Source of the DNA: a virus | Strand: one strand, 5' to 3' | Virus record (IMG/VR): IMGVR_UViG_3300034108_001154 | Coordinates: 62,001-126,000 of that record | DNA length: 64,000 nucleotides | Shown here: positions 9,918 to 46,256 of the stretch, one piece after another | How positions within the stretch are numbered: the stretch's first letter is position 1 | How the letters are laid out: each line of letters starts with the position of its first letter | Notes under the pieces: generated by a model | What the model saw: the letters and a program-made list of their open reading frames with translations, nothing else | Database searches by the model: none | Told to the model about the DNA's origin: nothing | Translations under genes and position numbers: made by a program

Positions 9918-9923
9918 TAAACA

Positions 9924-9955: not shown

Positions 9956-9959
9956 TAGT

Positions 9960-10678: not shown

Positions 10679-10679
10679 A

Positions 10680-26634: not shown

Positions 26635-26651
26635 GAAGAAAATAAAAAGTT

Positions 26652-28432: not shown

Positions 28433-29054
28433 TATAACATATGCAGTTACAGTTTGTAATGAAATTGAAGAGATTACAAAATTAATCAATTTCATACATC
28501 CGAGAATTCAAAAAGAGGATGAGATTTTGATTCAATATGATTCAGATGGGGCTACTGAAGATGTGGTAAACTATCTAAGAATTATAGGTGAATTACATCA
28601 AAACATAAACATAATAAGTTTTCCACTTAATAAGGATTTTGCAAGTTTTAAAAACAACTTAAAGAATCATGCAAATGGTATCTTTATTTTCCAATTGGAT
28701 GCAGATGAAATCCCATCGGAATTTTTGATTGAAAATATGCACGATTTAATCGAAGCTAACTTAGATATTGATTTATTCTTTGTACCAAGAGTTAATACCG
28801 TTGAAGGATTAACCGATGAACATATTAAAAAATGGGGATGGCAATTAAATCCAAATGGTTGGATTAACTGGCCTGATTTACAAACTAGAATTTACCGAAG
28901 AACATCGGAGATTGAGTGGGATGGTAAAGTACATGAAAGAATCAAAGGTTATAATACATTAACTATCCTACCATTGCAAGAGGAATACGCTATCTATCAC
29001 CCTAAAGGAATAGAAAGACAAGAAAAACAAAACGAATTGTACGATACTATATGA
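28425..29054 (+). CDS. GT2 family glycosyltransferase
   Basis: The 209-residue protein has ITYAVTVCNE at the N-terminus, FQLDADEIP (the DxD-type metal site) near residue 90 and WDGKVHERIKG later, a motif set typical of small GT-A transferases. It overlaps the genes on both sides by a few bases. Confidence 0.8.
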   Translation: MVNITYAVTVCNEIEEITKLINFIHPRIQKEDEILIQYDSDGATEDVVNYLRIIGELHQNINIISFPLNKDFASFKNNLKNHANGIFIFQLDADEIPSEFLIENMHDLIEANLDIDLFFVPRVNTVEGLTDEHIKKWGWQLNPNGWINWPDLQTRIYRRTSEIEWDGKVHERIKGYNTLTILPLQEEYAIYHPKGIERQEKQNELYDTI

Positions 29055-30028: not shown

Positions 30029-30795
30029 TAACAGTTATATTAAATGGTTATAAGAGAGGCGAAAACCTCAACGAACAATTAGAAGCTCTAAGGAATCAAA
30101 CGGTAAAGCCGGATGAGATTCTTTTATGGTATAATAATCCAGGTGATAACGATTTGTTGAATTATGATATTGGAACGGAAATTCCAGTTGCATATTGTAA
30201 TTACAACTTTGGTGTATGGGCAAGATTCTACTTCGCAATGAACGCTAGAAATCCTTATGTTTGTGTATTTGATGATGATACAATCCCTGGCGAAAGATGG
30301 TTAGAAAATTGTATGGAAACTATGAAAACACATGAAGGTTTATTGGGTTCAGTTGGATTACTTTATCCAAACCCATTACCAGCGGAACATTCATCTTATT
30401 ACGAACACTACTTAAGATTCGGATGGCCGGAATTAGGTAACAATGAAAGAACTGTACAAGTTGATTTAGTTGGACATAGTTGGTTCTTTAAGAAAGAATG
30501 GTTATCTCATATGGTGAGAGAATTACCTGACCCAAAATACAATACCTGTGGTGAAGATATGCACTTTTCGTATATGTTACAAAAGTATGCAGGAATACCT
30601 ACATTTGTACCGCCACATCCTAAAGATGATAAATCCCTATGGGGGAGTATCAAAGGAGCTGAATATGGTGGTGATGCTAACTCACTATGGGAATCAAACC
30701 AAGCTAGTGTAGAAGGTACACCATTTAAACAATTAATGAATCAATATTTTCACGAACAAAGAATTAAAGGTTGGAAATTAGTAAATGAAAAATAA
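30025..30795 (+). CDS. GT2 family glycosyltransferase
   Basis: The 256-residue protein has ITVILNGYKRGENL at the start, CVFDDDTIPG (metal-binding DxD) near residue 84, and TCGEDMHFSY near residue 180, the acceptor-side ED motif. This is a standard GT-A layout. It overlaps the epimerase gene by eleven bases. Confidence 0.82.
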   Translation: MITVILNGYKRGENLNEQLEALRNQTVKPDEILLWYNNPGDNDLLNYDIGTEIPVAYCNYNFGVWARFYFAMNARNPYVCVFDDDTIPGERWLENCMETMKTHEGLLGSVGLLYPNPLPAEHSSYYEHYLRFGWPELGNNERTVQVDLVGHSWFFKKEWLSHMVRELPDPKYNTCGEDMHFSYMLQKYAGIPTFVPPHPKDDKSLWGSIKGAEYGGDANSLWESNQASVEGTPFKQLMNQYFHEQRIKGWKLVNEK

Positions 30796-31786
30796 TACAA
30801 TATTACTCTGTTTTGGGACAAGACCCGAATGGTTAAAAATTAAACCATTGATTAAGATTATGGATAGAAGTGAATATAAACTTCTATTTACAGGTCAACA
30901 CCCTGATTTACTTCAAAATGTTAAAGTAGATTATAAAATTAATATAAACAATTCTGATAATAGATTGGATTCAATTATATCAGATTGTATGTTACAATTC
31001 CCTAATGGGGAATTCAGTTCAGTATTAGTTCAAGGTGATACTGGTTCAGCATTTGGCTGTGCATTAGCAGCATTCAATAGACAGTTAAAGATTTACTATT
31101 TGGAAGCTGGGTTAAGAAGTGGTGATTTACAACACCCATACCCTGAAGAGGGATATAGACAAATGATAGCAAGAATAGCAGATGTGAATCTTGCACCAAC
31201 TCAATTATCGGCTAATAATCTAATAAAAGAAAAAGTACATGGTAAAATTCATGTAGTTGGAAACTCTGTATTGGATAATTTGGTAGATTTTGGTGACCCA
31301 ACTTATGAAAACTTTGTACTGATTACTTTACATCGTAGAGAAAATCATTATTGGATGGATAAGTGGTTTACAGAACTTAATGATTTAGCAATAGCTAATC
31401 CTGATTTGGAATTTATTTTACCAATTCATCCAAATCCAAATGTTCAAAAATGGAAACATCTATTAACCAGTGTTAATGTGGTTGAACCAATGGAACATAC
31501 TGATATGATTTTACATATTAAGAAATGTAGATTCATTATTTCGGATAGTGGTGGATTACAAGAAGAGGGCTCATTTTTTAATAAGCAAGTAATTGTATGT
31601 AGAACTACAACCGAAAGACCTGAAGGATTATATACAGGTCATTTACATTTATGTAAAAATCCAAATGATTTAAAAAAATTATTTGGAAAAGTTAATAATA
31701 ATCCGTATATTAGTGAAAATTGTCCATATGGTGATGGTGATACTGCTATTAAAGTTTTAAATATATTAAGAGATGAAAAATTTTAG
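30785..31786 (+). CDS. wecB: UDP-GlcNAc 2-epimerase-like protein
   Basis: The 333-residue protein has the family landmarks in order: CFGTRPEWLK, YLEAGLRSGD, PEEGYRQ, VGNSVLDN, LHRREN, SDSGGLQEE and TTERPEG. The enzyme converts UDP-GlcNAc to UDP-ManNAc, a precursor for surface polysaccharides. It is about 40 residues shorter than cellular WecB but keeps the motifs, so it is probably active. Confidence 0.88.
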   Translation: MKNNTILLCFGTRPEWLKIKPLIKIMDRSEYKLLFTGQHPDLLQNVKVDYKININNSDNRLDSIISDCMLQFPNGEFSSVLVQGDTGSAFGCALAAFNRQLKIYYLEAGLRSGDLQHPYPEEGYRQMIARIADVNLAPTQLSANNLIKEKVHGKIHVVGNSVLDNLVDFGDPTYENFVLITLHRRENHYWMDKWFTELNDLAIANPDLEFILPIHPNPNVQKWKHLLTSVNVVEPMEHTDMILHIKKCRFIISDSGGLQEEGSFFNKQVIVCRTTTERPEGLYTGHLHLCKNPNDLKKLFGKVNNNPYISENCPYGDGDTAIKVLNILRDEKF

Positions 31787-32549
31787 AGAACACTTTTTTA
31801 AATTTAAATCCAAATTGGATAATAAAGAAAACTTCGCATTTTCACGTTATTCAGATGGTGAAATGTATATCTTACAAAATAAAGAATTAGTATTAGATAA
31901 TGGGCTAATTCAGATTGGAAATGAAAAGCAAGGTGGTGTTTATCAGTCACCTGATTTCAAACACTTTGACCCAAAAGAACATTCATTTTATCAACAGAAG
32001 TTAGTTGAATCACTTCAATACAAACAACACAATTATTACAAAGGAATTAGTTGTAGTTGTTGTGTAGGTAAGGAAGCATTTGATTGGCAGGTTGATTTAG
32101 CTGGTGGTGATGATGAATCACTAACTTGGGCTAATCTTTGGGTAAACGGAAACTATCCTATATTCATAACACATATTCTACCAATTTTTTATAGTAGAGA
32201 TTGTGTGTTTATTGGACATGAGGATGCTAACTTAAATAGATTACCATTTTTTGTGAAAGACTTTAGAGTGGGTTATAACGCAATGATTAATGATTATGGA
32301 AAAATTGAAAATATTAAAGAGTGGATTAGAACAAATAATGTTAAAAACCACATATTCCTTTTTTCGGCTTCTACTTTTACCAATTTGGCAATTGTGGAGT
32401 TGTTTAGAGATTACCCTGATAACACTTATGTTGATATTGGGACTTGTTTAACACCAATGATGGATATGCCAACTCATAGAGGGTATTTACAATCATTTTG
32501 GAATTACCAAAACACACAAGATATTCAAAAGATTTGCATATGGAATTAG
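31773..32549 (+). CDS. GT-D-like glycosyltransferase candidate
   Basis: The 258-residue protein has FSRYSDGEMYIL near residue 24, close to the R-x-G-D-G-E motif of GT-D fold enzymes (DUF1792-like). Several Cys (SCSCCV) occur in the middle. It overlaps the epimerase gene by 14 bases and the next gene by 10. The assignment is moderate. Confidence 0.55.
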   Translation: MKNFREHFFKFKSKLDNKENFAFSRYSDGEMYILQNKELVLDNGLIQIGNEKQGGVYQSPDFKHFDPKEHSFYQQKLVESLQYKQHNYYKGISCSCCVGKEAFDWQVDLAGGDDESLTWANLWVNGNYPIFITHILPIFYSRDCVFIGHEDANLNRLPFFVKDFRVGYNAMINDYGKIENIKEWIRTNNVKNHIFLFSASTFTNLAIVELFRDYPDNTYVDIGTCLTPMMDMPTHRGYLQSFWNYQNTQDIQKICIWN

Positions 32550-32923
32550 TAGAATGTACAAGCGGATATTGGGAATTTGTAAGAGTTCTTAGAAATGATA
32601 AAAGAGTATTGAGTGGATTTATCAAATCAACTCATATTACTGAAGAAATGCAGAATTCATATATGAAAACACATTCTCAGTTTTATCGTATAGCATTGGT
32701 TAATGGTAAACCTGCTGGATACGTTGGTGTTATTGAAGATGATATCAGAGTATGTACACATCCTGATTTTCAAGGTTTGGGAGTTGGTAAGTTTATGATA
32801 AACCAATGTATGGTTACATGGCCTACCGCATTTGCAAAAGTAAAAATAGATAATGAAGCAAGTATGAAATTATTCGAAGCTTGTGGATTTACAAAAAAAT
32901 ATTATATATTAACTAAAGATTAA
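32540..32923 (+). CDS. GNAT acetyltransferase
   Basis: I start the gene at the ATG at 32540, which overlaps the previous stop slightly; an in-frame ATG at 32498 would make a longer overlap. The 127-residue product has HPDFQGLGVGKFMI, the acetyl-CoA-binding motif A of GNAT enzymes, and a final EACGFTKK. It may acetylate an amino sugar made by the neighbouring aminotransferase. Confidence 0.8.
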   Translation: MELVECTSGYWEFVRVLRNDKRVLSGFIKSTHITEEMQNSYMKTHSQFYRIALVNGKPAGYVGVIEDDIRVCTHPDFQGLGVGKFMINQCMVTWPTAFAKVKIDNEASMKLFEACGFTKKYYILTKD

Positions 32924-32926
32924 ATT

Positions 32927-33553
32927 ATGTTACACAATCCATACAAAATTGTAAGAATGTTTGAAGAGGAAATCGCTAATTATACCGGCGCTCCTTACGC
33001 TATCTCAATTGATAGTTGTACAAACGCATTATTCCTTATTTGTAAATACAATGAGGTGAAGGAAGTTACAATCCCATCAAAAACGTATCTATCAGTACCT
33101 CAATCGATTATACATGCTGGTGGTACAGTTATCTTCGATAAGAGAGCAGAAACAAACCATTGGAAGGGTTTATACCAATTCAAACCATATCCTATCTACG
33201 ATGCCGCAAAACGATTAACAAGCGGTATGTACATACCCGGAACTTATATGGGGTTATCATTCCACATTAAAAAGTTACTTCCAATTTGGAAAGGTGGTAT
33301 GATTCTAACCGATAATGCTGATGCGGCTGATTGGTTTAAAAAAGCTCGTTATGAAGGTAGAAGTGAAAAATATTACAAAGAGGATGATATTACATTCCAT
33401 GGTTGGAATATGTATATGACTCCACAACAAGCAGCTCAAGGTTTGGCTATGTTTCAAAACTATCCAGAACATATGAGTGATTTAGGTGAAGATAATGGTT
33501 ATAGAGATTTAACCGAATTTACTGTTTTCAAAAGCAATAAAGTTATAGAATAA
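32927..33553 (+). CDS. Short DegT-like sugar aminotransferase
   Basis: The 208-residue protein has YDAAKRL (PLP-binding Asp) and SFHIKK (the Schiff-base Lys) in the DegT/DnrJ/EryC1 order, plus TIPSKTYLS near the start. Family members have about 370 residues; the C-terminal small domain is missing. The reading frame is clean and overlaps the next gene by one base, so this is a compact form rather than an obvious pseudogene. Confidence 0.65.
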   Translation: MLHNPYKIVRMFEEEIANYTGAPYAISIDSCTNALFLICKYNEVKEVTIPSKTYLSVPQSIIHAGGTVIFDKRAETNHWKGLYQFKPYPIYDAAKRLTSGMYIPGTYMGLSFHIKKLLPIWKGGMILTDNADAADWFKKARYEGRSEKYYKEDDITFHGWNMYMTPQQAAQGLAMFQNYPEHMSDLGEDNGYRDLTEFTVFKSNKVIE

Positions 33554-34218
33554 TGAAAGTAGAAAAATTAATTAGTAAAAATCAACCATCAAATTGGTTT
33601 AATCAAATAACAAAAGAATGTAGGGATGAATATCCAATTCATTTAGTTGACATAGATGCATCGGAAAAACTCGTTGATATGGGATGTAATGTTGGTGGTT
33701 TTAGTGAAGCATGGAATTATCGCTTTCATAATATCTTAGCAATTGATGCAGCCTCATATAATGTTGAACAATATAAAAGTAGACATTCTCATCAAATTTT
33801 ACACAAAGCAGTATCATCTAAAGATGGTGAAATTGTAAAGTTAAAAAAATATATGGGTAACAATGATGATGATACTAATTCTGGAAACTTTTCAATAACA
33901 GGTTTTGTAAATGAACATAACAAACATGGATTTAGGGGTGATGAATATGAAGAGGTTGAAACTATTAGTTTAGAAACCATTTTAGAAATGGTTGGTACTA
34001 TTGGTTTGTTGAAAATTGATATAGAAGGTGCTGAAGTGGATGTATTGTACCAAAAGGATTTATCAAAAGTAAATTACATAACTGGAGAATTCCATAATTT
34101 TATTGGTAAAGAAAATCAATCAAAATTATTTGGATGGATTGGTAATACTCATACTGAAATATATTCTGTTGGTGATGGTGTTAGTTCTCATTTTATAAAA
34201 ATGTGGAAAAGAAAATAG
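33553..34218 (+). CDS. FkbM family methyltransferase
   Basis: The 221-residue protein has LVDMGCNVGGFSEAW (SAM-binding motif I), IDAASYNVEQY, and LLKIDIEGAEVDVL, the characteristic FkbM block. FkbM enzymes O-methylate sugars or natural products. It starts on the last base of the aminotransferase stop codon, indicating a joint role in making a decorated sugar. Confidence 0.85.
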   Translation: MKVEKLISKNQPSNWFNQITKECRDEYPIHLVDIDASEKLVDMGCNVGGFSEAWNYRFHNILAIDAASYNVEQYKSRHSHQILHKAVSSKDGEIVKLKKYMGNNDDDTNSGNFSITGFVNEHNKHGFRGDEYEEVETISLETILEMVGTIGLLKIDIEGAEVDVLYQKDLSKVNYITGEFHNFIGKENQSKLFGWIGNTHTEIYSVGDGVSSHFIKMWKRK

Positions 34219-34219
34219 T

Positions 34220-34945
34220 ATGAAAATAGCACTATGTTTACATGGTTTATTTGATTCAACAACTGATGGTAGTTCCAATGGTTATGATGGATACAACCAT
34301 ATTAAAAAACACATTTTAGATATTACTGATACTGATGTGTTTATCCATAGTTGGGATATTGAAAAAGAGAGTGAAATCACTAAGTTATATAATCCAACGT
34401 CAGCCATATTTGAAGCCCCAAAAGATTTTAATGAATTGGTAAATGGTAGAGGTTTAAATAATTTGAGTGGAACACCACGTTCACCTCAAAGTGTATTATC
34501 CCATCTTTATAGTGTAACTGAATCAATGAAGTTACCATATATAACTAATTCAGAATATGATATCATTATTAAAGCTCGTTTTGATTTGGGTAGAATAAAT
34601 AGAGATACATCTGGACCAGGTAGAGGTAACCCATACCCAGTTCAATGTATTAATTTTCAAACTGAAATCGAATCTGATAAAATATATATGGCAGATTGGA
34701 ATCATTTCAAAATGGGACCAGCGGATATGTGGTTTTATGGTACAATGGAAACTATGAAACCATTTACATCATTATATAATTCATTAGAGGAGCAAATGGA
34801 ATTTAGAAGTCCATTTCACACATTTGCAGCTCAGATAGAAGGAAACCCTGGTGACCTTTCAAATTCCATAGCATTTTATAAATGGTGGATGATACAAAAT
34901 GGACTTTGGGAAAATAGAATAAATTTACAAACAATATGGGAATAG
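34220..34945 (+). CDS. WavE-like putative glycosyltransferase
   Basis: The 241-residue protein begins MKIALCLHGLFDS and has DIIIKARFDLGRI (an R-x-D type motif) near residue 115. It resembles the C-terminal half of the protein at 53314-54807, which carries RARTDTYFD at the matching place. Such proteins are linked to LPS or capsule synthesis. Confidence 0.55.
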   Translation: MKIALCLHGLFDSTTDGSSNGYDGYNHIKKHILDITDTDVFIHSWDIEKESEITKLYNPTSAIFEAPKDFNELVNGRGLNNLSGTPRSPQSVLSHLYSVTESMKLPYITNSEYDIIIKARFDLGRINRDTSGPGRGNPYPVQCINFQTEIESDKIYMADWNHFKMGPADMWFYGTMETMKPFTSLYNSLEEQMEFRSPFHTFAAQIEGNPGDLSNSIAFYKWWMIQNGLWENRINLQTIWE

Positions 34946-35634
34946 AATTACCAATAGTAGTGTACACTCACACCGATATGAAGGATGTATGGCCAATGTT
35001 TTTTGGACAATTCAAAAAATATATCAATGGTTATAAAGTGTATGTGGCTGTTAATCAAATAGATACGCAAATACCATCGGATTATATCCAATTGGTATAT
35101 GATGATTCAAAATCATATACAGAGCGCTGGAGACAAATACTTCCACAAATTGAGGAAGATGTTATTATGTTTTTGCATGAGGATATGATATTATTCGATA
35201 CACCTAATTTTGAATTATTAGAAAAGTATTATGGTTATGTTAAAAGTGGAGTAGTTGAGAGTATTAAAATGATATTAGCAGGTGATTCATTTCTTCCATC
35301 AACCATAGATAGTACATTAGTTACCAATCAATACGCAAAGTTTTCAATCCAACCAACACTAGTTAAAAAGGAAATATTTCAAAATTTAGTTAATACTATT
35401 GGTTCGTTAAATATTTGGCAATTTGAAGAAGCTATTATTTCATATGGTCGGGATTTTATGATACGAGTTGGTAGTGAGAAAAAAAGAGGTATGTATCACT
35501 ATGATAGTATTGTTTTCCCTTATATAGCAACTGCTATTAATAAAGGAAAATGGAATATGAGTGAATACCAAAAAGAATTGGATAAAATGTTTAATGAATA
35601 TGGTGTAATGCCATTTGAAAGAGGAATAGTATGA
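34936..35634 (+). CDS. Putative GT-A-like glycosyltransferase
   Basis: The 232-residue protein starts IELPIVVYTHTDM and has IMFLHEDMILFD, a possible DxD-type metal site, near residue 75. The C-terminus resembles other phage sugar proteins. It overlaps both neighbours. No certain family. Confidence 0.5.
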   Translation: MGIELPIVVYTHTDMKDVWPMFFGQFKKYINGYKVYVAVNQIDTQIPSDYIQLVYDDSKSYTERWRQILPQIEEDVIMFLHEDMILFDTPNFELLEKYYGYVKSGVVESIKMILAGDSFLPSTIDSTLVTNQYAKFSIQPTLVKKEIFQNLVNTIGSLNIWQFEEAIISYGRDFMIRVGSEKKRGMYHYDSIVFPYIATAINKGKWNMSEYQKELDKMFNEYGVMPFERGIV

Positions 35635-36998
35635 TAAAATTAATAGTATTTGATTTAGATGGAGTTTTAGTAGAAGCTAAGAATATCCACTTTGATGCAC
35701 TAAATAATGCATTAGGACCTGAATATGAAATAAGTTGGGCTGAACACCTTTCAACTTATGATGGTTTGAAAACAAACCAAAAGTTGAATATGTTGAGTGA
35801 ACAAAAGGGATTACCAACTGAATTACATAAACAAGTATGGGATAAAAAACAAAAGTACACATTACAGATGTTAAAAGAGTTGAAACCAAATCAAACTCTA
35901 CAATCGGTAATGAATGCACTTTCTGAAGATGGATACAAATTAGCAGTTTGTTCTAATTCAATCAGAAAGACAGTTTTGACTGTACTTTCAAAATTGGGAA
36001 TAATGGAGTTTATGGATTTAATTATCTCAAATGAAGATGTTAAGAATTCTAAACCACACCCTGAGATGTATTGGAAAGCAATTTCAATGATGAGTTGTTT
36101 ACCAGAAGAAACTCTAATTGTAGAGGATTCACCTTATGGGTTACTTGCGGCATCTCGTTCCAAATCTCATATTTTGAGAGTTAGAAATCCACAAGAAGTA
36201 ACCTATACGAACATATTTAAAAAATTAACTGAAATACAAATGGGTAAAATAGAAACAACACCTAAATGGGTAGATAAAAAGTTGAATGTATTAATTCCAA
36301 TGGCTGGTGCTGGAAGTAGATTCCAAACTGCTGGTTATACATTCCCAAAACCACTAATTGATGTAGAGGGTAAACCAATGATTCAAGTTGTGGTAGAAAA
36401 TTTGAACATAGATGCAAATTACATATATGTAGTTCAGAAAGCACATAGAGAGCAATATAACTTAGATACCTTACTAAATTTAATTACACCTGGTTGTAAA
36501 GTAGTAGAAGTAGATACATTAACCGAAGGAGCTGCTTGTACGGCATTATTGGCTAAAGAATTTATTGATTCAGAGGCACCACTTTTCTTTGCAAATTCAG
36601 ACCAATTTGTAGAATGGGATTCAAACGAATTCTTTTACAAAATGAATGAGAACGATTGTGATGGTGGAATACCAACATTTAAAGCAACTCACCCAAAATG
36701 GAGTTTTGCTAAGTTAGATGATGATGGATTTGTAACCGAAGTACAAGAGAAAAACCCAATATCTGATTTGGCAACAATTGGTTTTTATTATTGGAAACAT
36801 GGTTCGGATTTTGTGAAATACGCTGAAGAGATGATTGAGCAAGATATTAGAGTGAATGGAGAATTCTATGTTTGTCCTGTTTATAACAACGCAATTAAAG
36901 CTGGATTAAAGGTTAGAACATTCGATGTACCTAAAATGTGGGGATTGGGAACCCCTGAGGATTTAAAATATTATTTAGAAAATTATAAAAATGATTAA
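35631..36998 (+). CDS. HAD phosphatase fused to sugar nucleotidyltransferase
   Basis: The 455-residue protein has an N-terminal HAD domain (about 1-200) with VFDLDGVLVE, CSNSIRK and IVEDSPYGL, then a nucleotidyltransferase domain (about 215-455) starting LIPMAGAGSRFQ with FPKPLIDVEGKPMI and FANSDQF. The first could act on a sugar phosphate, the second attach a nucleotide, so one protein may do two steps toward an activated sugar. Confidence 0.82.
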   Translation: MIKLIVFDLDGVLVEAKNIHFDALNNALGPEYEISWAEHLSTYDGLKTNQKLNMLSEQKGLPTELHKQVWDKKQKYTLQMLKELKPNQTLQSVMNALSEDGYKLAVCSNSIRKTVLTVLSKLGIMEFMDLIISNEDVKNSKPHPEMYWKAISMMSCLPEETLIVEDSPYGLLAASRSKSHILRVRNPQEVTYTNIFKKLTEIQMGKIETTPKWVDKKLNVLIPMAGAGSRFQTAGYTFPKPLIDVEGKPMIQVVVENLNIDANYIYVVQKAHREQYNLDTLLNLITPGCKVVEVDTLTEGAACTALLAKEFIDSEAPLFFANSDQFVEWDSNEFFYKMNENDCDGGIPTFKATHPKWSFAKLDDDGFVTEVQEKNPISDLATIGFYYWKHGSDFVKYAEEMIEQDIRVNGEFYVCPVYNNAIKAGLKVRTFDVPKMWGLGTPEDLKYYLENYKND

Positions 36999-37818
36999 AA
37001 CAGCTACTATAATAACAACTCATAATCCTAAATTTCATCATGCATTTAATTTATTGGAATCCTATATAAAATATGTAGAGAAACCACATGACTTATATTT
37101 TATTTTTACAAATGAAAATGAAATGTTTGATTTTAATTGGAAATCCGAATACAAATATATGGATAATTATAAACCATTAATATTGGATGAATCATTGAGA
37201 GATAAAAAAAGTATTGTTAATGTTAAAAAAATGTTTGCATTACAATCTATAATTAACGATTATGATTATGTTGGTGTATATGATTGTGAATCTGAATTTG
37301 TTAAAAATTGTAACTTAGATACCATATATGAAAATATTGCATCATATGATTATGTAAAGGCTAACGAATCTGAAATTGGAGGTAATATAATAAAGTTAGC
37401 AGCAGGATATATGGGATTGGATACTAATGAAATATTAATAAATCAAACTAAAAATTATTCTCTATATTGGTGGTTTAGTGAAATACCTGTTTATAAAAAA
37501 GAATTGTTTATAGATTTCTATGATTGGTATAAATCATCTGAAAATTTAAATACATTACAATCAGAATATTATGCATTTGATTATTTGGTTTATATAATAT
37601 GGTTAGTTTGTTTTAAAAATTTTAAAATCAAACATATTGAATTACCATTTAAATCCGAAATTTCAGCAGTTGAGGATTTTAGATTAACACAAGAACAAAA
37701 GGATATTGTTAGTAATGAATTTCAATCGTATTGGTCTGTAAATGGTGTAAACCATAAAAAGTATGATAATATAAAATTAATAGTACATTCGGATAATGCT
37801 GGATATATAGATAAATAA
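36991..37818 (+). CDS. Putative glycosyltransferase
   Basis: The 275-residue protein begins TATIITTHNP and has GVYDCESEF near residue 95, which could be a metal-binding motif of a GT-A fold. It is very AT-rich in codon use compared with the replication genes. The family is uncertain. Confidence 0.45.
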   Translation: MIKTATIITTHNPKFHHAFNLLESYIKYVEKPHDLYFIFTNENEMFDFNWKSEYKYMDNYKPLILDESLRDKKSIVNVKKMFALQSIINDYDYVGVYDCESEFVKNCNLDTIYENIASYDYVKANESEIGGNIIKLAAGYMGLDTNEILINQTKNYSLYWWFSEIPVYKKELFIDFYDWYKSSENLNTLQSEYYAFDYLVYIIWLVCFKNFKIKHIELPFKSEISAVEDFRLTQEQKDIVSNEFQSYWSVNGVNHKKYDNIKLIVHSDNAGYIDK

Positions 37819-37828
37819 AAAAATAATA

Positions 37829-39067
37829 ATGACAAATTATCAAAGAGTTACCTTTATTATACCTTGTAGGAATAATTTAAGATTTTTACAACAAGCCGTT
37901 TCATCAATTGAAGAACATTATGGTGATGGGCATGATATTGTGATAATGGATGATGCATCAACTGATGATAGTTGGGAATGGATTGAAAAATATGGTTCGG
38001 ATAAGAATCATATTTTAACTTATAGAAATGGTGGAAAAGATAGAGTTGGGCATACTGTTTTATACGATATAGGTATTCAATTAGCTAGAACACCAATCGT
38101 AACAATATTACATTCAGATATGATTGTAACACCAAACTATGTTGGGAATATGTTGAAACACCTTAAACCAATGAGTGTAGTTTCAGCCACTAGAATCGAA
38201 CCACCATTGCATCCACCTGGTCCTGAAAAATATGTTAAGAATTTTGGAATGGATGTGGATGAGTTTACTGATGCCAAATCCAATTTCTTAAAATTTGTAT
38301 ATGAAGCTGAGTATCTAAATGAGGGTAAAGTTACTAATGGTATCTTTGCACCTTGGATGTTATATAAAGAAGATTTTGTATCTATTGGTGGGCATGATAA
38401 ATTATTTGCACCTATGGAGTTGGAAGATTCTGATATATTTAATAGGTTCCATTTGAATGGGTACCAATTAATTCAGAGTAGAGATGCATTTGTATATCAT
38501 ATGACTTGTAGAGGTAGTAGATTTAAAGATGGTATCGAAATAGAAAAAGAGATACCACTACCAGATGGTACAATATGGTTCAAACCAAAAGACTCTGAAG
38601 AATATTTACAACTAAGAGCAACCAAATTTAGAGAGTGGTGGAGAAAGTGGCATACTGATGTTTTACATGATGATAATATGATGCCAATAGTTCCTAAAAG
38701 ATATTCAACATCATTTATAATTGAAAATTGTAGACCACAACTACTTTCAATATTAGAACCCTGGTGTGATGATATCTATGTAGATTGTGAATTTAACTCA
38801 TATATTATGAATGAAGATTCTAAATCGGAATATATAATATCCGATAAAGTTCATTCAATTGGTAATGATGTTAAAAATAATGTACACATTAAATTTGATG
38901 CTAGTAAATTAACTAATCAACATTTTACTGAATTTATTAAAAAATTACCATTTATTATTGAACAAACTGGGCAATTGGGTACATTCAATTGGGATATATT
39001 TGAAATAAGTATTTTATCTTTAAATACAATTGACATGATTAAACCTCACTTTAAAAACGTATTTTAA
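37829..39067 (+). CDS. GT2 family glycosyltransferase with extra C-terminal domain
   Basis: The 412-residue protein has VTFIIPCRNN, IVIMDDASTDDSWE and ILHSDMIV in the GT2 order, then PMELEDSDIFNRF with the acceptor-side ED. Residues 290-412 form an extra domain I do not recognise. It is followed by a one-base-overlapping GT gene. Confidence 0.82.
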   Translation: MTNYQRVTFIIPCRNNLRFLQQAVSSIEEHYGDGHDIVIMDDASTDDSWEWIEKYGSDKNHILTYRNGGKDRVGHTVLYDIGIQLARTPIVTILHSDMIVTPNYVGNMLKHLKPMSVVSATRIEPPLHPPGPEKYVKNFGMDVDEFTDAKSNFLKFVYEAEYLNEGKVTNGIFAPWMLYKEDFVSIGGHDKLFAPMELEDSDIFNRFHLNGYQLIQSRDAFVYHMTCRGSRFKDGIEIEKEIPLPDGTIWFKPKDSEEYLQLRATKFREWWRKWHTDVLHDDNMMPIVPKRYSTSFIIENCRPQLLSILEPWCDDIYVDCEFNSYIMNEDSKSEYIISDKVHSIGNDVKNNVHIKFDASKLTNQHFTEFIKKLPFIIEQTGQLGTFNWDIFEISILSLNTIDMIKPHFKNVF

Positions 39068-39951
39068 TGAAAAAAAAGACATTAGTATGTATCCATATAA
39101 TGCCATCTGAAATAGAAATGTTTCAAAGGTTTATGGAACAATATAGAAAAGCATTATCGTATTGTAGAGAATATGATGTTACTATAAAAGCAACTTTGAA
39201 TTTAAACCCAAAACTTACGGATTGGGAAAATAGTGAGTTAAAGCAAGATTACTTTATGAATATCTTCAATGCTCAGTTTCAATATAAAGAATTGAAAAAT
39301 ATAAATCAAATTATATTAGATGAATCTATGTGGGGTACAACTCAACAAAAGAGAGAATCTATTAAAATTGATTACTTTGACCAATTTATATTTTGTGATA
39401 CGGATATTGTGATGCATGAACATCAGTTAATATACCAATTACAAGCAGCAGAAAGATTGGAGGGTATGTATATACTTTCACCATCAATTCCAAAGTGGTG
39501 GGATATGAGTTGGGATGGTTTAGTAAGTGATTCAATGAAAAATGCCGAAGCATTTAGTGAAGAAACTATGTTAGGTGCATTTACACAAACTCCAACTAAT
39601 ATGCAACTTAAGAAGTTACCATATATTAAATTTGGATGTGGTATGCATACTCTATATTCTAAATCATTTTGGCAGTTTGTTGGAATACCTGAATCATTTG
39701 GTGGTTATGGACCCGAAGATACTTATGGTATGACAGCTGGTAGAATAGCATTAGAAGCTGGTTATGTAGTGAATCAATACGTTTTAGATGGATTATACAT
39801 TACAGAAGATTATATAAATAGAGTTCCATCATTTGATGGTAAAATTAAAACTATTGACAAAAAATCTGAATTTTACAAAAACGCAGAAGCAATTGGTAGA
39901 GATGAATTGGTGGCATTTGTAGAAAGATTAAAACAAAAAAGTATCACTTAA
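39067..39951 (+). CDS. Glycosyltransferase, last gene of the sugar island
   Basis: The 294-residue protein has FIFCDTDIVMHE (DxD) near residue 110 and GGYGPEDTYGM near residue 216, the C-terminal signature of galactosyltransferase-like GT-A enzymes. It ends the island; a class-2 motif and a holin-like gene follow. Confidence 0.7.
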   Translation: MKKKTLVCIHIMPSEIEMFQRFMEQYRKALSYCREYDVTIKATLNLNPKLTDWENSELKQDYFMNIFNAQFQYKELKNINQIILDESMWGTTQQKRESIKIDYFDQFIFCDTDIVMHEHQLIYQLQAAERLEGMYILSPSIPKWWDMSWDGLVSDSMKNAEAFSEETMLGAFTQTPTNMQLKKLPYIKFGCGMHTLYSKSFWQFVGIPESFGGYGPEDTYGMTAGRIALEAGYVVNQYVLDGLYITEDYINRVPSFDGKIKTIDKKSEFYKNAEAIGRDELVAFVERLKQKSIT

Positions 39952-40344: not shown

Positions 40345-40905
40345 ATGAAATCAGTTGAAAAATACATTGTAGAGAATTATGGGAAAAGAACCGCATCAAA
40401 ATTAATGAGTGAGGGTATTCCTAAATTATTTCTAAAAATTGAAGCAGTTAAGAAACAAATAGAAAAATTAACTGCAGAAAGAAAACAAAAATTTGGTGGA
40501 GCATATGCTGCTAAAGTTAATAGTGAAACGGATGTAAATAAAAGAAATACATTGGTTAAACCAATTTTAGACATCACCAAAAAAATAAATGCACTACACA
40601 AAAATCTTATCGATTTGTATGATATGGAGGAAAGATACATAAAGGATTTAGGTAAAGATGATGAATTGGTAGTTTCCGAAGATACGGATTTAGGTCATCA
40701 GGATGATGAACCGGGTATGTTAAGAGCTGATTTAAGTATTATCGAAAGATATGCTGAAGAATTAGGTGAGATGTTGGCTCAGTTTGATAGTACTGGTGAA
40801 GAAGTTGATTTTCCACATTGGTGGCAAGCTAAGATAGTTAATGCTAAAGAAGATATGATTGCGGCTAAACACTACTTAAGGTCAGAATTAGAAAAAAATA
40901 ATTAA
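40345..40905 (+). CDS. Helical protein, possible virion-internal protein
   Basis: The 186-residue protein is strongly helical. Its start MKSVEKYIVENYG contains a hydrophobic-x-E site like the capsid-targeting sequences in the genes downstream, and LMSEG follows at about 22-26. The C-terminus has a Trp-rich block DFPHWWQAKIVNAKEDM. No enzyme motif. A structural or injected role is inferred. Confidence 0.55.
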   Translation: MKSVEKYIVENYGKRTASKLMSEGIPKLFLKIEAVKKQIEKLTAERKQKFGGAYAAKVNSETDVNKRNTLVKPILDITKKINALHKNLIDLYDMEERYIKDLGKDDELVVSEDTDLGHQDDEPGMLRADLSIIERYAEELGEMLAQFDSTGEEVDFPHWWQAKIVNAKEDMIAAKHYLRSELEKNN

Positions 40906-40917
40906 AAATAACTAACA

Positions 40918-41235
40918 ATGCAATCAGAATCAATTTACGCAGTAATAATAACACTAATAACAGTATTAGGTTCAGCTGGAGCTTGGAGGTTTTATGAGAA
41001 AAAAGCCGAAAGACAGGAAAAGGAAGATGAATTTATTAAACATGATTGCTCTAAGAGAATTGATAGATTGGAACAATTGTTAGAAAGAAGTAGTCAAGAA
41101 AAAGATGAACTTAGGGATAAGATACTAAATCTTACTAGAGATTTGGCAGAATTAACTATTAAAGTTCAATATCTTGAAATGGAAAATAAAAAATTGTTAG
41201 AATTAAATACTCAATTTCTGAAACAAAGCTCCTAA
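40918..41235 (+). CDS. Membrane-anchored coiled-coil protein
   Basis: The 105-residue protein has an N-terminal membrane helix (about 5-22) and then a long charged coiled coil, similar in plan to i-spanin (Rz-like) proteins. Its nearness to the holin-like gene supports a lysis role, but no partner o-spanin was recognised. Confidence 0.55.
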   Translation: MQSESIYAVIITLITVLGSAGAWRFYEKKAERQEKEDEFIKHDCSKRIDRLEQLLERSSQEKDELRDKILNLTRDLAELTIKVQYLEMENKKLLELNTQFLKQSS

Positions 41236-41239
41236 TTTA

Positions 41240-41271
41240 TTAGGATATATCAGAAAAAAATTGTATATTTG
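41240..41271 (+). promoter_or_regulatory. Promoter with ATCA element
   Basis: TTAG (41240-41243), 20 bases with ATCA at positions 6-9, TATATTTG (41264-41271). Confidence 0.75.
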
Positions 41272-41296
41272 TATGTTAACAATCAAACAAGAAAAT

Positions 41297-41827
41297 ATGA
41301 TAGCAAGGAGTTTATTAGTGGAATCTAAGAAGTTAAGAATATTTGATTTTGATGATACATTAGTAAAAACAACATCATTTATATACATAACGCATTCTAA
41401 TGGAAAAAAATCAAAATTAACTCCAGGTCAATACGCTGTTTATAATGAAAAACCTGGTGATGAATTTGATTTTTCTGATTTTCAAAAAGTTCAGAATCCT
41501 CAAGAAATAAAAAAGATTACGAATGTACTTCGTAGAGTAATGGGTAGTAGTGGTGGAGATGGTGTTTACATCCTAACTGCAAGAGCAGCATATCAACCTA
41601 TTAAACAATATCTAAAGGATATTGGTATTAATTCTAATAAAATATTTGTAGTTGCATTAGCATCTAACAACCCGAAAGATAAAGCAGATTGGATAGAAGA
41701 TAAAATCGATAACGAAGGTTATGATGATGTTTACTTTGCGGATGATTCTGAAAAGAATGTAGAGGCAACCAAAGCAATGTTAAGAGGTAAGGATGTTAGA
41801 TGGAGAGTACAACATATAAAACATTAA
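41297..41827 (+). CDS. HAD-type phosphatase with capsid-targeting-like N-terminus
   Basis: I start at the ATG at 41297; earlier in-frame starts (TTG 41261, ATG 41273) lie in or at the promoter. The 176-residue product reads MIARSLLVESKK, then LRIFDFDDTLVKT (HAD motif I), ILTARAAYQP and FADDSEKNVEAT (motif IV). It resembles the phosphatase part of T4 PseT. Its first ten residues match the M-I-x-x-x-L-L-x-E pattern of the family downstream, so it may be packaged and injected. Confidence 0.75.
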   Translation: MIARSLLVESKKLRIFDFDDTLVKTTSFIYITHSNGKKSKLTPGQYAVYNEKPGDEFDFSDFQKVQNPQEIKKITNVLRRVMGSSGGDGVYILTARAAYQPIKQYLKDIGINSNKIFVVALASNNPKDKADWIEDKIDNEGYDDVYFADDSEKNVEATKAMLRGKDVRWRVQHIKH

Positions 41828-41832
41828 AAAGA

Positions 41833-41842
41833 TATATTTATA
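41833..41842 (+). promoter_or_regulatory. TATATTTATA motif (possible late promoter)
   Basis: Exact TATATTTATA, 19 bases before the next ATG, the same distance as at 2142. Confidence 0.4.
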
Positions 41843-41861
41843 AGAATAACAAAGTACAACT

Positions 41862-42143
41862 ATGAAATTAAACTTTAAACTAAAAGGTAATACATATTCA
41901 GCTGAATTTGGTGTACATCCCAACATTAAAGATGGTGGGATTGCTTGTATTGCAAAAACTTCAAAAGATTTGGATGTTTTACAAAATATAATATCTGATT
42001 CAAATGAAGCATTAGTTATTCCAAAGGCATTACAAAGTTATTTGGAATCAAAATTAAAATTACCAATTGATATTGATTTTGATTATAAAGGTGCTGGATA
42101 TGGGTTTAAAATAGATATGTACAGCTTATTAAAGAAATTATAG
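41862..42143 (+). CDS. Hypothetical protein
   Basis: The 93-residue protein is mixed alpha/beta, mildly basic, with no motif I recognise and no capsid-targeting-like start. It lies in the late-looking cluster and is preceded by a class-2 promoter-like motif. Confidence 0.6.
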   Translation: MKLNFKLKGNTYSAEFGVHPNIKDGGIACIAKTSKDLDVLQNIISDSNEALVIPKALQSYLESKLKLPIDIDFDYKGAGYGFKIDMYSLLKKL

Positions 42144-42149
42144 AAGATT

Positions 42150-43337
42150 ATGAAAAAATCAATAAAAGAGGGTTCGATGAGTGATGTAGATTTGATGGCT
42201 AAAGAGGCATCATCATTTAAAGAATTCGTTAAGGAATTTTACAAAGAATTCAAAGACTTCCCTAAAAATAGAGATGCGATGAAATGGTTGGAAGATACCT
42301 ATAAATCAGTTAGTGAAGGTACTGAATCTGATGAATTGGAAAGAGTGGCAGATGCACTTCCTCAAACTGTTGAAGAAATGATTAATGAAATTTCTTTATC
42401 ATCAGCTGGTGTTAGAGATTTTTTAAGAGCGTTGTATCGTAATAACAAAATACTAAAGAAATTAGGATTTTCTAATTTTAAAGGTGCAGTTGATTATATT
42501 AGAAGTAATGGTGGTCGTGATTGGGATGAGTTAAGAGATGAGGCTACTGGATTTGGATTGAAATTTGAATCAATAAACGAAGAAAAACCTGGTCTTTGGG
42601 CAAACATCCGAGCTAAAAGAGCGAGAGGTGAGAAACCTGCACATGGTAATTCTGATGCACATAAAGATGCAGTTAAAGCTGGTAAGAAAATAAATAACGA
42701 AGACCATAGCGGAGACCCATCCGATAAATACGTTGTAAAACCTTGTAAAGACCCAATTGAAAAATGGGCTGTATGGGAAGGTGATATTAGAGTAAAGGGA
42801 TTTGAAACACAACCTGAAGCTCAAGCATTCGCTGATATGAAAAACAAAGAGCAAGGGTTAACTGAAGTAGGTGATGTAATTGATACAATCACTATGGATA
42901 TACCATTGTTTATTAGAACATTGGAATTTGCAAGAGAAGATGCTAAAACTGATATGGATTTGCATGATTTTGCTGAAAGAGCTATTAAGCTTACAAAGGA
43001 AAAGGGTACAATCGATATGAGTTCATATAATGAATTGATTGGTGGTAGTTCTGTAAATGAAGGAGCCGGATGTGGTTGTGGTTGTGGGTGTGGTGGTTCT
43101 AAGTTAACAGAAAACACCGAACCAACTATTATAACCCAATTAAAGGATATAGTTAAGACTAGTTCAAATAAAGTTTTAGTAGACCCAAAGAGTGGTAAAA
43201 AAGTAAGAGTTGATTTGTACTCAGCATCAGCAATAACTAAAGTATATGATGCACTTAAGCAACAATCAAACAAAGATAAATTCGTAAGTACTGGATTAAT
43301 GGGTATGCAATCAATGGCATTTAAATTATTAAAGTAA
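42150..43337 (+). CDS. Multi-part protein with Gly-Cys repeat
   Basis: The 395-residue protein has a helical N-terminal third, a middle segment KYVVKPCKDPIEKWAVWEGD resembling short sequence modules in other phage structural proteins, a helical block DMDLHDFAERAIKL, and a GCGCGCGCGG run near residue 308 that could bind metal or form disulfides. It lies among likely internal or structural proteins and overlaps the next gene by one base. Confidence 0.55.
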   Translation: MKKSIKEGSMSDVDLMAKEASSFKEFVKEFYKEFKDFPKNRDAMKWLEDTYKSVSEGTESDELERVADALPQTVEEMINEISLSSAGVRDFLRALYRNNKILKKLGFSNFKGAVDYIRSNGGRDWDELRDEATGFGLKFESINEEKPGLWANIRAKRARGEKPAHGNSDAHKDAVKAGKKINNEDHSGDPSDKYVVKPCKDPIEKWAVWEGDIRVKGFETQPEAQAFADMKNKEQGLTEVGDVIDTITMDIPLFIRTLEFAREDAKTDMDLHDFAERAIKLTKEKGTIDMSSYNELIGGSSVNEGAGCGCGCGCGGSKLTENTEPTIITQLKDIVKTSSNKVLVDPKSGKKVRVDLYSASAITKVYDALKQQSNKDKFVSTGLMGMQSMAFKLLK

Positions 43338-43861
43338 TGAGCTCATCTAAATTAAAAACCATATTATCGGAAATAGAATGGAAGGGTATGAAAGTTGAGC
43401 TTGGAAAAGTTTATACATTTAAAGATATTCCACCATTCAAAACTCCACAACAAATCAGAGAAGAGGAAGAAGTAGTAACTCAACCTGATAATGATAGAGA
43501 AATGGTAGTTGGTGTAGCTGAAATTGTTTCTATGGTAAGTGATACCGAAAATAGAAAAGAGATAGCTGCTAAAATGATGAAAAAGTTTGATTATGAAAAT
43601 GTAAAATATAATCCAACTGAATTTTTAAAACTAAGTGGAGTTACTGAAAGTATAGATGAGTTAGTTCAAATGTCAATACAAAATGTGGCAACTGATTTAA
43701 TTCCAAGAGATATAGTTAATGTAGTAACACCAGAATCTAAAGAAAGATATACATCATTTGTAAGAGATTTGGTGAGTACATTAAATATGTTTTATAAGAA
43801 ACATGGGGTGGATAGAAGATTTACCGATAGTAATTTCAAATATACAAAATTTTCAAAATAA
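43337..43861 (+). CDS. Protein with capsid-targeting-like N-terminus
   Basis: The 174-residue protein begins SSKLKTILSEIEWKG, in which LKTILSE matches the hydrophobic-x-E prohead protease-type site. The rest is helical and acidic without enzyme motifs. It is the first of three adjacent genes with this kind of start. Confidence 0.58.
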   Translation: MSSSKLKTILSEIEWKGMKVELGKVYTFKDIPPFKTPQQIREEEEVVTQPDNDREMVVGVAEIVSMVSDTENRKEIAAKMMKKFDYENVKYNPTEFLKLSGVTESIDELVQMSIQNVATDLIPRDIVNVVTPESKERYTSFVRDLVSTLNMFYKKHGVDRRFTDSNFKYTKFSK

Positions 43862-43862
43862 T

Positions 43863-44138
43863 ATGATACGATTAAGTAAATTAATAAACGAAGCATCTGT
43901 TGTTGAATTAAGTGAATTAACTCCAATTCAACAAAAGCAAATTAAAGCATTCGAATCAATAATCGGTGGAAAGGCCGAAATGATTTGGGATGGTATACAT
44001 GGTTTTGTAGTTGCTATAAAATTACAAAATTATCATGGTGCATATCGATTTGATGTAGATACTATGAAAAAATTAATAGCAGCAAAAGTTCGTTGGGTTG
44101 AAGAAGATTTGGGTAAACGAGTTAGTATAGGATTTTAA
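43863..44138 (+). CDS. Small protein with capsid-targeting-like N-terminus
   Basis: The ATG at 43863 is chosen: it gives MIRLSKLINEAS, the same start as the next gene, and begins two bases after the previous stop; an earlier in-frame start at 43803 lies inside that gene. The 91-residue product has a compact alpha/beta C-terminal part (EMIWDGIHGFVVAIKL) of unknown function. Confidence 0.6.
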   Translation: MIRLSKLINEASVVELSELTPIQQKQIKAFESIIGGKAEMIWDGIHGFVVAIKLQNYHGAYRFDVDTMKKLIAAKVRWVEEDLGKRVSIGF

Positions 44139-44153
44139 TAACAAAATATAATT

Positions 44154-45134
44154 ATGATACAATTAAAACAATTGATAAATGAGGCTAGTGATTTCACTGC
44201 TAAGAGTAAGGAAAGTGGAAAGTTAGTACACTTCAAATCAAAAGATTCTTATGATAAAGCTATTAAGGCTGGTTCACATGAGGACCCAACTGCAAAAACA
44301 TCAAAGGGTGGTGATGCTAAGTCTGGTGTGAATATCTTTAATACACCATCTAAAGATGAACCAAAATCGGATACACCCAAAGCAACTCCTGCTAGTTTAG
44401 CTGTTGATAAAGTTGTTTATAATACGAGAACTAAATCAGTTGGTATTGTAAGAATGGCAGATGAAAGAGGTGAAACAAAAACCGATGCAGATGGTAATGT
44501 AAATACATCTGAATTAGAACCATATAACCCAACAAAGTATCCACATCAAAAAGATGCTAAAGTTGCACCATCTACTCAAAAAGAGGTAGATAGTAGAGGT
44601 TTATGGAATCCATTTGCACCTGATAGTGATGAACCAAAAGCAGCTGAACCAAAAGCACCAAGAAAAGGTGACCCAACGGTAAATAAAGAAGTTAGAAAGA
44701 TAGCTCAAAAGATGGGAATTTCATCTGATAAGATGGATAAAACTGAGTATCAAAAGAAAATGGCTCAAGCAGCAGTTGCGGCACTTACTGATTCAAACTT
44801 CCATAGTGAAGCAAGAGAGTTAGTAGCAGCATTAGAAGGGAAACCTGAATTAGCAGAGAAGCCAGATTACCCCAACCCATCAGACCCTAAGTTCAGAGAA
44901 AAGATGGATGTAATCAGAGCTAAATATGATTCAGTATATAGTTCACCTGATGATGATGCACAAGATTTGGGGGTAGCCGCATCACAAGCAGCCGGATGGA
45001 GTGGAGATACCGCAATTGATGGAATTGCATTTGAATTAAGAATGAACGGATTTCATAAATTAGCAGATAAGATACAATCAGTAATTAAAGAAGGTAAAGT
45101 TAATAGAACTTCACTTAAGAACTTAATGAAATGA
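44154..45134 (+). CDS. Low-complexity protein with capsid-targeting-like N-terminus
   Basis: The 326-residue protein begins MIQLKQLINEASDF. Residues 10-180 are Lys/Asp/Ser/Pro-rich and look disordered; the C-terminal third is helical. It overlaps the next gene by four bases. Its composition suits a protein packed with DNA in the head. No enzyme motif. Confidence 0.6.
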   Translation: MIQLKQLINEASDFTAKSKESGKLVHFKSKDSYDKAIKAGSHEDPTAKTSKGGDAKSGVNIFNTPSKDEPKSDTPKATPASLAVDKVVYNTRTKSVGIVRMADERGETKTDADGNVNTSELEPYNPTKYPHQKDAKVAPSTQKEVDSRGLWNPFAPDSDEPKAAEPKAPRKGDPTVNKEVRKIAQKMGISSDKMDKTEYQKKMAQAAVAALTDSNFHSEARELVAALEGKPELAEKPDYPNPSDPKFREKMDVIRAKYDSVYSSPDDDAQDLGVAASQAAGWSGDTAIDGIAFELRMNGFHKLADKIQSVIKEGKVNRTSLKNLMK

Positions 45135-45985
45135 TAAAATTAAATCAGTTAACTGAAAATAAAAACACCCAACCCAACTTAAATGAGGGGTTGGGTGATG
45201 CTATTTCTAAGATTAGGAATTTAGCAATAAGGATAGCTGATAAGAAAGCTGGAAATGCGGTAAAGCATCTTAACTTAGATAAAATTAGTAAAGATAAACC
45301 GGATACAAAGGCAGCAATGAATAAAGCTCAATCGGTTTTTTCAAAGCAAACTGGAATGAATGAGGATTTACGAAGTACAATTAATAAATTTTCAGTTAAT
45401 GTAGGAAGTAAATCAGCATTGGGAGCAATTATATCAGCTGTATTAACTGCTGGTAGTTGGACTCAATACGCAACAGCATCATTTTCACAATGGTATTATT
45501 CTGAAATCCAAAGATTAGCAGAACCTGAGGTAATGAAAATAATGGAAGATGTATATGGTGCACAAGCAGCTGAAGGTTCTTTATGGGCTAAGTTGGGAAT
45601 GTACGCATTTTTTATATTTTTTATAATTGCAGTTGTAATGTTTGTATCTGCTAAAATAACACAAAATAGAAAAACCGAAAATACGATGATAAAATTAACT
45701 GATTTGATGTCAGAATCAAACGAAACTTATTTCAAATCATTTACCGATGCGGCATCAGCTGCTAAAGCATACGCTATGAAAAAAGGGTATGAAATTGATG
45801 AGAATGATTGGCAAACACAAATAGCAATGGGAGGTAAGTATTCTCGTTCAAGACCATCTATTGGTAAGACTAATTCATTTACTGTTGGATTATTGAGAAA
45901 TGGTAAACCCCAAAGAAAGGCACTACATATTTCAGTATATGGTATGGCTAGTGGAAACTTTGAATTAACTAATTATATTAATTGA
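45131..45985 (+). CDS. Fused membrane-helix protein with two targeting-like starts
   Basis: The 284-residue protein begins MIKLNQLTENK, contains a hydrophobic helix (about 152-174, AFFIFFIIAVVMFVSA) and then a second start-like segment MIKLTDLMSESNE at residues 186-198 followed by a compact domain ending KALHISVYGMASGNFEL. The last part looks like a separate protein fused in frame. An internal start at 45686 could also be used. Confidence 0.6.
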   Translation: MIKLNQLTENKNTQPNLNEGLGDAISKIRNLAIRIADKKAGNAVKHLNLDKISKDKPDTKAAMNKAQSVFSKQTGMNEDLRSTINKFSVNVGSKSALGAIISAVLTAGSWTQYATASFSQWYYSEIQRLAEPEVMKIMEDVYGAQAAEGSLWAKLGMYAFFIFFIIAVVMFVSAKITQNRKTENTMIKLTDLMSESNETYFKSFTDAASAAKAYAMKKGYEIDENDWQTQIAMGGKYSRSRPSIGKTNSFTVGLLRNGKPQRKALHISVYGMASGNFELTNYIN

Positions 45986-45989
45986 TATA

Positions 45990-46256
45990 ATGAGTAAAGA
46001 AAAATCTTTGGTTACAGTTTATGTTAAAAATGGTGATATAAATAAAGCTCTTAAGATATTCAAAAACAAAACATTTGAATCAGGTCATCTTTTGGAGTTG
46101 AGAGATAGGAAGGAATTTACTAAACCAACTACTAAAAGGAGAAAGCAAATGAAAGATGCTATTCGTAGGCAAGAATTATTAACTATATTGGATAAAATAT
46201 CCAATGGAGATACAACAATAAAGGTTCCGGAAAAGAAAGTTAAAAATAAAAAGTAA
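45990..46256 (+). CDS. rpsU: Ribosomal protein bS21-like
   Basis: The 88-residue protein has the bS21 pattern: VTVYVKNGDINKALKIFKN, then LLELRDRKEFTKPTTKRRKQ, and a basic tail. Phage-encoded bS21 is known from several large phages. It may enter host ribosomes; in Bacteroidetes bS21 is part of the complex that hides the anti-Shine-Dalgarno sequence. It sits in the late-looking cluster before the tail fibre. Confidence 0.82.
   Translation: MSKEKSLVTVYVKNGDINKALKIFKNKTFESGHLLELRDRKEFTKPTTKRRKQMKDAIRRQELLTILDKISNGDTTIKVPEKKVKNKK

Follow-up and report, generated by a model that had tools for sequence, protein, structure and literature searches.

Does the row of neighbouring genes between positions 40345 and 45985 of a 64,000-nucleotide viral sequence (the window; positions 62,001 to 126,000 of IMG/VR record IMGVR_UViG_3300034108_001154) encode proteins that are packed into the phage head? 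A first-pass annotation had noted that several genes of this block begin with the short pattern M-(I/K)-x-L-x-x-L-x-x-E, likened them to the capsid-targeted internal proteins and Alt of T4, and suggested that their products may be packed in the head, processed and injected with the DNA. That lead was right in kind, namely a T4-like capsid-targeting and processing system; what it missed is that the putative cut site of the tag recurs between domains. We consider it highly probable that the block represents T4-type capsid targeting and gp21 processing, extended here to cleavable cargo polyproteins. This reading draws on the tag register, on protease and capsid genes in one virus, on shared head-cluster ancestry, on enrichment of cut-rule sites and on the interchangeability of tags and linkers, all of them properties of the sequences.

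As we envisage it, a ten-residue amphipathic N-terminal tag would dock each cargo protein on the prohead scaffold core, and a gp21-type prohead protease would cut after the Glu of the tag (LINE↓A, VNE↓A/G, with ↓ marking the predicted cut), freeing the body inside the head. The same site between domains, ∼70 to 115 residues apart, would turn one targeted chain into several small internal proteins. The bodies would remain in the head and some may be delivered to the host; this delivery with the DNA, proposed by analogy with T4 Alt and the internal proteins, is the least certain step, and we would give it about an even chance. The window belongs to a viral fragment of 143,445 bases with T4-type genes, on which 146 genes were counted. 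An identical copy of the 40345-45985 region lies in a 270,865-bp IMG/VR contig, taken as the same virus, and 179 genes formed the gene set of this virus for the register count. It is a T4-like jumbo phage of a kind predicted to infect Bacteroidota.

In T4 IPIII, residues 4 and 7 have been shown experimentally to govern targeting and residues 8 and 10 processing, and gp21 cuts after L/I-x-E (PMC9026906). The register used here was taken from this literature, with hydrophobic residues at E-6, E-3 and E-2 (positions 4, 7 and 8) and Glu at position 10. The features of the block are as follows.

40345-40905, plus strand: tagged protein, MKSVEKYIVE↓N (V4, Y7, I8, E10).
40918-41235, plus strand: small untagged protein with a hydrophobic N-terminus and a coiled coil; a neighbour of the block, kept in relatives.
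41273-41827, plus strand: HAD-type phosphatase with the N-terminal extension MIARSLLVE↓S (ATG at 41297, upstream ATG at 41273).
41862-42143, plus strand: small untagged protein, a neighbour of the block kept in relatives.
42150-43337, plus strand: candidate polyprotein of small domains, lacking a canonical N-terminal tag.
43337-43861, plus strand: tagged protein, MSSSKLKTILSE↓I, with equal spacing and a two-residue shift.
43863-44138, plus strand: tagged protein, MIRLSKLINE↓A (likely start at 43863, right after the upstream stop at 43861).
44154-45134, plus strand: tagged protein, MIQLKQLINE↓A; a small shared module (residues 13-40) comes next, then disordered sequence and a helical body.
45131-45985, plus strand: protein with an imperfect N-terminal tag, MIKLNQLTE↓N, a middle part that includes a strongly hydrophobic stretch, and its last domain at residues 197-284.
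45686-45715, plus strand: internal tag of the 45131 protein, MIKLTDLMSE↓S, in full register (residues 186-195; position computed from alignment).
45990-46256, plus strand: ribosomal protein S21, normally a head-cluster member in this phage group.

All five N-termini listed by the first-pass annotation are present in the sequence. Its strict pattern fits two of them (MIRLSKLINE and MIQLKQLINE); the other three are shifted or imperfect, MIKLNQLTE (45131) being one residue short, the 43337 start shifted by two and MIARSLLVE lacking L4. The pattern does recur elsewhere in the genome: it is found twice among the 146 contig genes (44154 and MIKLMDLLNEE at contig position 127619), or three times with the corrected 43863 start, against a mean of 0.02 for shuffled N-termini. 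In the T4 register, MIRLSKLINE and MIQLKQLINE present L4, L7, I8 and E10, and MIKLTDLMSE, which immediately precedes the last domain of 45131, presents L4, L7, M8 and E10. A T4-type tag is thus carried by 40345, 43863, 44154 and the internal site of 45131, and with the two-residue shift by 43337; the starts at 41297 and 45131 do not strictly conform. In relatives the HAD-type phosphatase starts MPISRSLFVE↓S or carries MIARSLLTE↓K.

Across the virus, 15 of the 179 genes show the register (3.1 in shuffles, 2.1 expected from internal windows), and none of 2000 shuffles reached 15. Among them are 40345, 43337, 43863, 44154, genes of the head cluster, the gene for a 1490-aa protein and a run of three genes immediately outside the window (contig 126457-128476). 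Within the block the register occurs in 4/9 genes plus the one internal tag, against 4/134 background genes (Fisher P = 4.7e-4, with a gene grouping chosen after reading the sequences). The motif is short, and such background matches by chance are what one would expect if the N-terminal pattern were accidental, or a generic amphipathic helix with no packaging role. We consider this very improbable in view of the excess over two controls (shuffles and internal windows), the retention of the tag in relatives while the bodies change, and its link to the head cluster and the protease.

Of the three consecutive tagged genes right of the window (L005, 2457-4476), one encodes a small YunG-like protein and another a P-loop protein resembling zeta-toxin/AAA_33 (MISLKEIIKGILSEG). 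The third encodes a paralogue of the N-terminal module of 44154 (MIKLMDLLNEE); its body recurs in relatives as a domain within proteins of 1400-1800 aa. The 1490-aa protein (L066, 2407-6879, minus strand, contig G002 of the same virus) bears the tag MSDLSKFLVES and is a large candidate head cargo protein, with a cytidylyltransferase-like domain (PF01467, 4.4e-8; phrog_395, 2.8e-15), a GNAT-like domain, a possible Zn ribbon and internal ESVINE/LLTE sites.

The first-pass annotation had called for a search for a gp21-like protease. Such an S77 protease is present in the 270,865-bp contig (PF03420, E = 2.8e-26), with a gp23 capsid protein (3.8e-76) nearby. A search of the window's own 143-kb contig gave no match, which alone is a weak negative since the first S77 control search also matched nowhere; the contig lacks a detected protease because it is a fragment, and the matter was resolved through the 271-kb copy.

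A relative at locus L067 has homologues of block proteins within a head cluster of the order gp20-gp21-gp22-gp23. Its 44154 homologue (62% identical, tagged MIKLRQLINEE) lies between gp21 and gp22/gp23. The gene order runs terminase, tagged protein (MIKLQTLLNEE), portal, several tagged or multidomain proteins and protease, and then 43863 homologue, 44154 homologue, tagged protein (MIKLSQILKEG), S21, scaffold and capsid protein, where terminase, portal and scaffold are our reading of the sequences and gene order. In a relative's head cluster, the 43863 domain sits behind an internal TLNE↓A site. The order 43863-44154-x-S21 is kept between the window and L067, and S21 beside the block marks it as a displaced head-cluster segment; the stretch 43863-44154-45131-S21 would most simply be a displaced piece of the head cluster. 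In Bacteroidetes phages with genomes of up to 331 kb, bS21 has been described in the vicinity of TerL, portal, prohead protease and MCP genes and of unnamed hypothetical proteins, and was co-transcribed with core structural genes late in infection (PMC9723584). The likely maturation sites of the capsid proteins in this group, placed by eye at the position of T4 E65, are LLDE↓A, LISE↓A, IVSE↓A and LVTE↓A, of the same form as the tags and linkers.

Three further loci concern this cluster. In one relative (L063, G006:C1:58781-60202) the capsid protein match is crossed by one TAG and one TAA stop, for which an insertion, an intron or an assembly error may be responsible. Flavobacterium phage immuto (L075, 12955-14196) encodes a scaffold-position protein with a duplicated module (GFEQWLDSVSAQMDKFGKNNPTIQAIEKA...) behind Glu-rich linkers. 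In Microcystis phage Mel-JY01 (L074, 13395-14561) a 388-aa protein lies between S21 and the scaffold/capsid genes, the position of the 44154 homologue in a relative; a C-terminal ADP-ribosyltransferase, suspected by eye, found no support in Pfam, PHROGs or PDB sequences and is not claimed.

In this virus and in its relatives, the head-cluster proteins have the appearance of small domains strung together by ESVNE-like linkers, and the linker E-S-V-N-E↓A/G fits the gp21 rule (L/I/V-x-E). The density of [LIV][NTS]E[ASGEN] sites, per 1000 residues, is 5.9 for the head cluster and 3.9 for the block and drops to 0.79 elsewhere, the last being the shuffled level; these figures are partly in-sample. 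The 42150 protein carries such inter-domain sites at residues 56 (SVSE), 80 (MINE), 144 (SINE), 239 (GLTE), 304 (SVNE) and 321 (KLTE). In 28 non-redundant polyproteins we counted 113 [LIVM][NTS]E[AGSN] sites against 9.6 in shuffles, with a median spacing of 80 residues and the consensus E-S-V-N-E↓A/G; variants of the motif carrying D or Q instead of E are rare. Enrichment extended to the remaining ORFs on the same contigs (2.4 per 1000), a plausible reason being that head-cluster genes are numerous among them.

Cut-rule sites repeated at domain boundaries beyond chance are what a polyprotein processed by the head protease should display, and these chains do display them. A first boundary test, which treated all local alignments as junctions, gave weak enrichment (33 vs 22.9, P = 0.005), because terminase, portal and low-complexity alignments diluted the signal, and was replaced by a domain-context test. 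In IMG/VR relatives, one domain had 22 unrelated upstream contexts, and in 19 of these [LIVM][NTS]E marked the boundary; a second occurred in 14 contexts, with a boundary site in 13; random positions gave 12-15%. Among the 14 is an 82-aa gene in which the N-terminal tag MKLLDILNE↓G replaces the linker. The w4 domain, often found outside this architecture, had a boundary site in 8/27 contexts. PF03420 was present on 21/22 contigs with such polyproteins, within 8.5 kb in 19 of the 20 measured, and over the cut-off in 10/18 contigs with the w4 domain only. Pfam scans of the chains found no peptidase domain and one LPD5 match below cut-off. In a model of the L013 polyprotein (9629-11011), 5/5 sites fell in low-confidence stretches, in a poor model of mean pLDDT 55.

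The interchange of separate genes and chains is most direct in three relatives (L093, L094 and L100), the gene order of which matches the window: homologues of 40345, 40918, the HAD-type phosphatase and 41862 are followed, in place of window genes 42150-45985, by one 722-751-aa ORF with ∼9 sites, and then by S21 and a fibre gene. From 42150 the chain holds two domains, from 44154 the middle part and from 45131 the last domain, which is the final polyprotein segment in relatives. In the window proteins the 42150 and 45131 domains begin right after a site, and so they do in the chain apart from a single case, the last junction, where L093 has KVNE↓A and L100 has no site. The 44154 part begins behind SVVNE↓G, and no counterpart of 43337 or 43863 was found in the chain. 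From these sequences the domains appear to move freely between a gene of their own, with its own tag, and a polyprotein segment. Residues 113-181 of the 40345 protein are likewise a domain common to an 841-aa protein of phage immuto. The w4 domain of window 42150 was also observed in a 735-kb phage record (LR756501.1, 67519-67716, 44% identity), near an ORF with an ESVNE linker (L073, 15418).

The linkers are also unusual as DNA, which raises the possibility that they are recombination seams or flexible linkers kept at the DNA level, with no relation to proteolysis and with the N-terminal pattern a separate matter. ESVNE linkers with near-uniform DNA were collected at loci L010-L207. The linker DNA is exactly GAATCAGTAAACGAA in 30/71 junctions with unrelated flanks, with codon use unlike the background, and conservation ends at the linker; the same word occurs exactly in at least 120 viral stretches, in frame at 103 of the 108 sites examined. 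However, a synonymous DNA word lies in frame as ESVNE[AG] at 81/86 sites in other viral contigs, so that the protein sequence is the common denominator; this control weakens DNA uniformity as the sole explanation of the motif. At the w6 domain the linker varies (LTEN, INEA, LNEG, VTEA, MNEA) with a constant hydrophobic-x-Glu, an N-terminal tag can substitute for the linker, and the linker has the form of the capsid maturation site. We therefore judge a seam unrelated to proteolysis improbable, and the two roles are in any case mutually compatible. The uniform DNA could reflect shuffling at a short shared sequence. A more far-reaching version, plausible but tentative, is that aquatic T4-like phages swap cassettes of small effector domains between genomes, with the linker (ESVNE, often the same 15 bases) serving as both prohead-protease cut site and recombination seam, and one targeted chain delivering many separate proteins to the host.

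The protein bodies bear on a further alternative, in which the block proteins belong to the prohead core (scaffold-like; cf. T4 gp67/gp68 and gp22) and would be targeted, chopped by gp21 and expelled or left inert, with no effector delivery. T4 core proteins are indeed cut by gp21 into several fragments (PMC9026906), the polyproteins are located among core genes and most domains have no enzymatic annotation. AlphaFold2 predicted for 44154 a low-confidence helix (residues 4-11), a small beta-beta-alpha module, ∼120 disordered residues and a well-predicted helical body; a fold search with this model gave no significant match and no recognised fold for the body. In tblastn searches of named phages, neither 44154 nor its paralogue at contig 127619 nor the L013 polyprotein had a match, and Pfam and PHROGs searches of the block proteins gave none to T4 IPI-III or Alt bodies. 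A weak match of the THIGYGKY module to the S-SM1 protein discussed below (E about 0.05) was not used as evidence. A core role is at odds with the tagged proteins that carry a HAD phosphatase, a zeta-toxin/AAA_33 P-loop or a cytidylyltransferase and GNAT, unlikely for scaffold, and with domain content that differs strongly between relatives, unlike scaffold. We regard it as unlikely, while giving it some weight, and favour tagged, protease-processed cargo.

For such cargo, an anchor in the virion is provided by Synechococcus phage S-SM1, the cytidyltransferase T4-GC190 of which was found by mass spectrometry in purified virions (PMC3037559). Its N-terminus, MKKFSAFLNE↓AERSF, has the register of the window tags, and the cytidylyltransferase occurs in tagged form both there and in the 1490-aa protein of the window's virus. 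We take this to support the tag, and not to prove the case for the window proteins. From the tag register, the protease, the head-cluster homologues and this tagged cyanophage virion protein, we infer the T4-type packing and processing that the first-pass annotation had proposed.

T4 IPI-III and Alt share with the window group a tag of ∼10 residues in which positions 4, 7 and 8 are hydrophobic and position 10 is Glu, with Ala next in several cases (PMC9026906), a gp21-like S77 protease in the same virus, and unrelated bodies behind similar tags. They differ in that the window bodies are unrelated to theirs (Pfam, PHROGs) and in that here the site recurs between domains, for up to ∼10 segments. 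We know of no T4 internal protein built as a string of segments joined by cut sites. The giant phages phiKZ and SPN3US likewise have a related prohead protease family cutting after Glu, many cut cargo/ejection proteins and extra propeptide sites (PMC5694885; PMC9026906), but theirs are A-x-E (SPN3US) and S-x-E (phiKZ) sites with mostly long propeptides, whereas the window group has V/I/L-N/T/S-E, short tags and regular inter-domain linkers. Polyvalent proteins, known from phages and conjugative elements, are also long multidomain chains with shuffled domains; they have been proposed to enter the host, and their authors likened them to viral polyproteins (PMC5512222). However, they embed peptidase domains; Pfam scans of the chains here gave neither these nor, above cut-off, other catalogued polyvalent domains, and it is the head protease that would cut them in trans. 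The bS21 phages resemble this group in having bS21 with TerL, portal, protease and MCP and large genomes. They differ in that their bS21 is encoded on the opposite strand, whereas in this group it shares the strand and, in the window's virus, lies apart from the head cluster. The sections of that report used here give no role to the neighbouring hypothetical proteins (PMC9723584). No description of a cleavable domain-string architecture was found in the literature searched.

Several points weigh against tagged and processed cargo. Within the block, 40918 and 41862 have no tag. A canonical N-terminal tag is also missing from 42150 and from the L093 polyprotein, so that tagging does not account for their recruitment. 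The short gp21 rule (L/I-x-E) is common by chance, and the block shows hardly any enrichment of plain [LIV].E (z = 1.6). Part of the data had been seen before the motif was refined, the later IMG/VR sets serving as the out-of-sample test. For this virus and the ESVNE polyproteins, presence in the head and cleavage are predictions from sequence.

The tag and linker architecture suggests a widespread, modular and unannotated form of protein packing, perhaps of delivery. As a rule it picks out, from the many unannotated genes that uncultivated T4-like phages carry, those likely to encode head-packaged proteins, and the exact cut positions it predicts can be checked by virion proteomics. If it holds, head cargo would go beyond a handful of internal proteins to a large, fast-shuffling set, partly of polyproteins cut by the head protease. 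Such a set would supply unknown host-takeover and anti-defence factors and might offer a packaging tag and cleavable linker for engineering.

Elsewhere, a long run of glycosyltransferase-like genes lies ahead of the block (window 25243-39951), its order partly kept in relatives L159-L161, and this virus also encodes GroES- and GroEL-like chaperonins (L005, 15149-17053).

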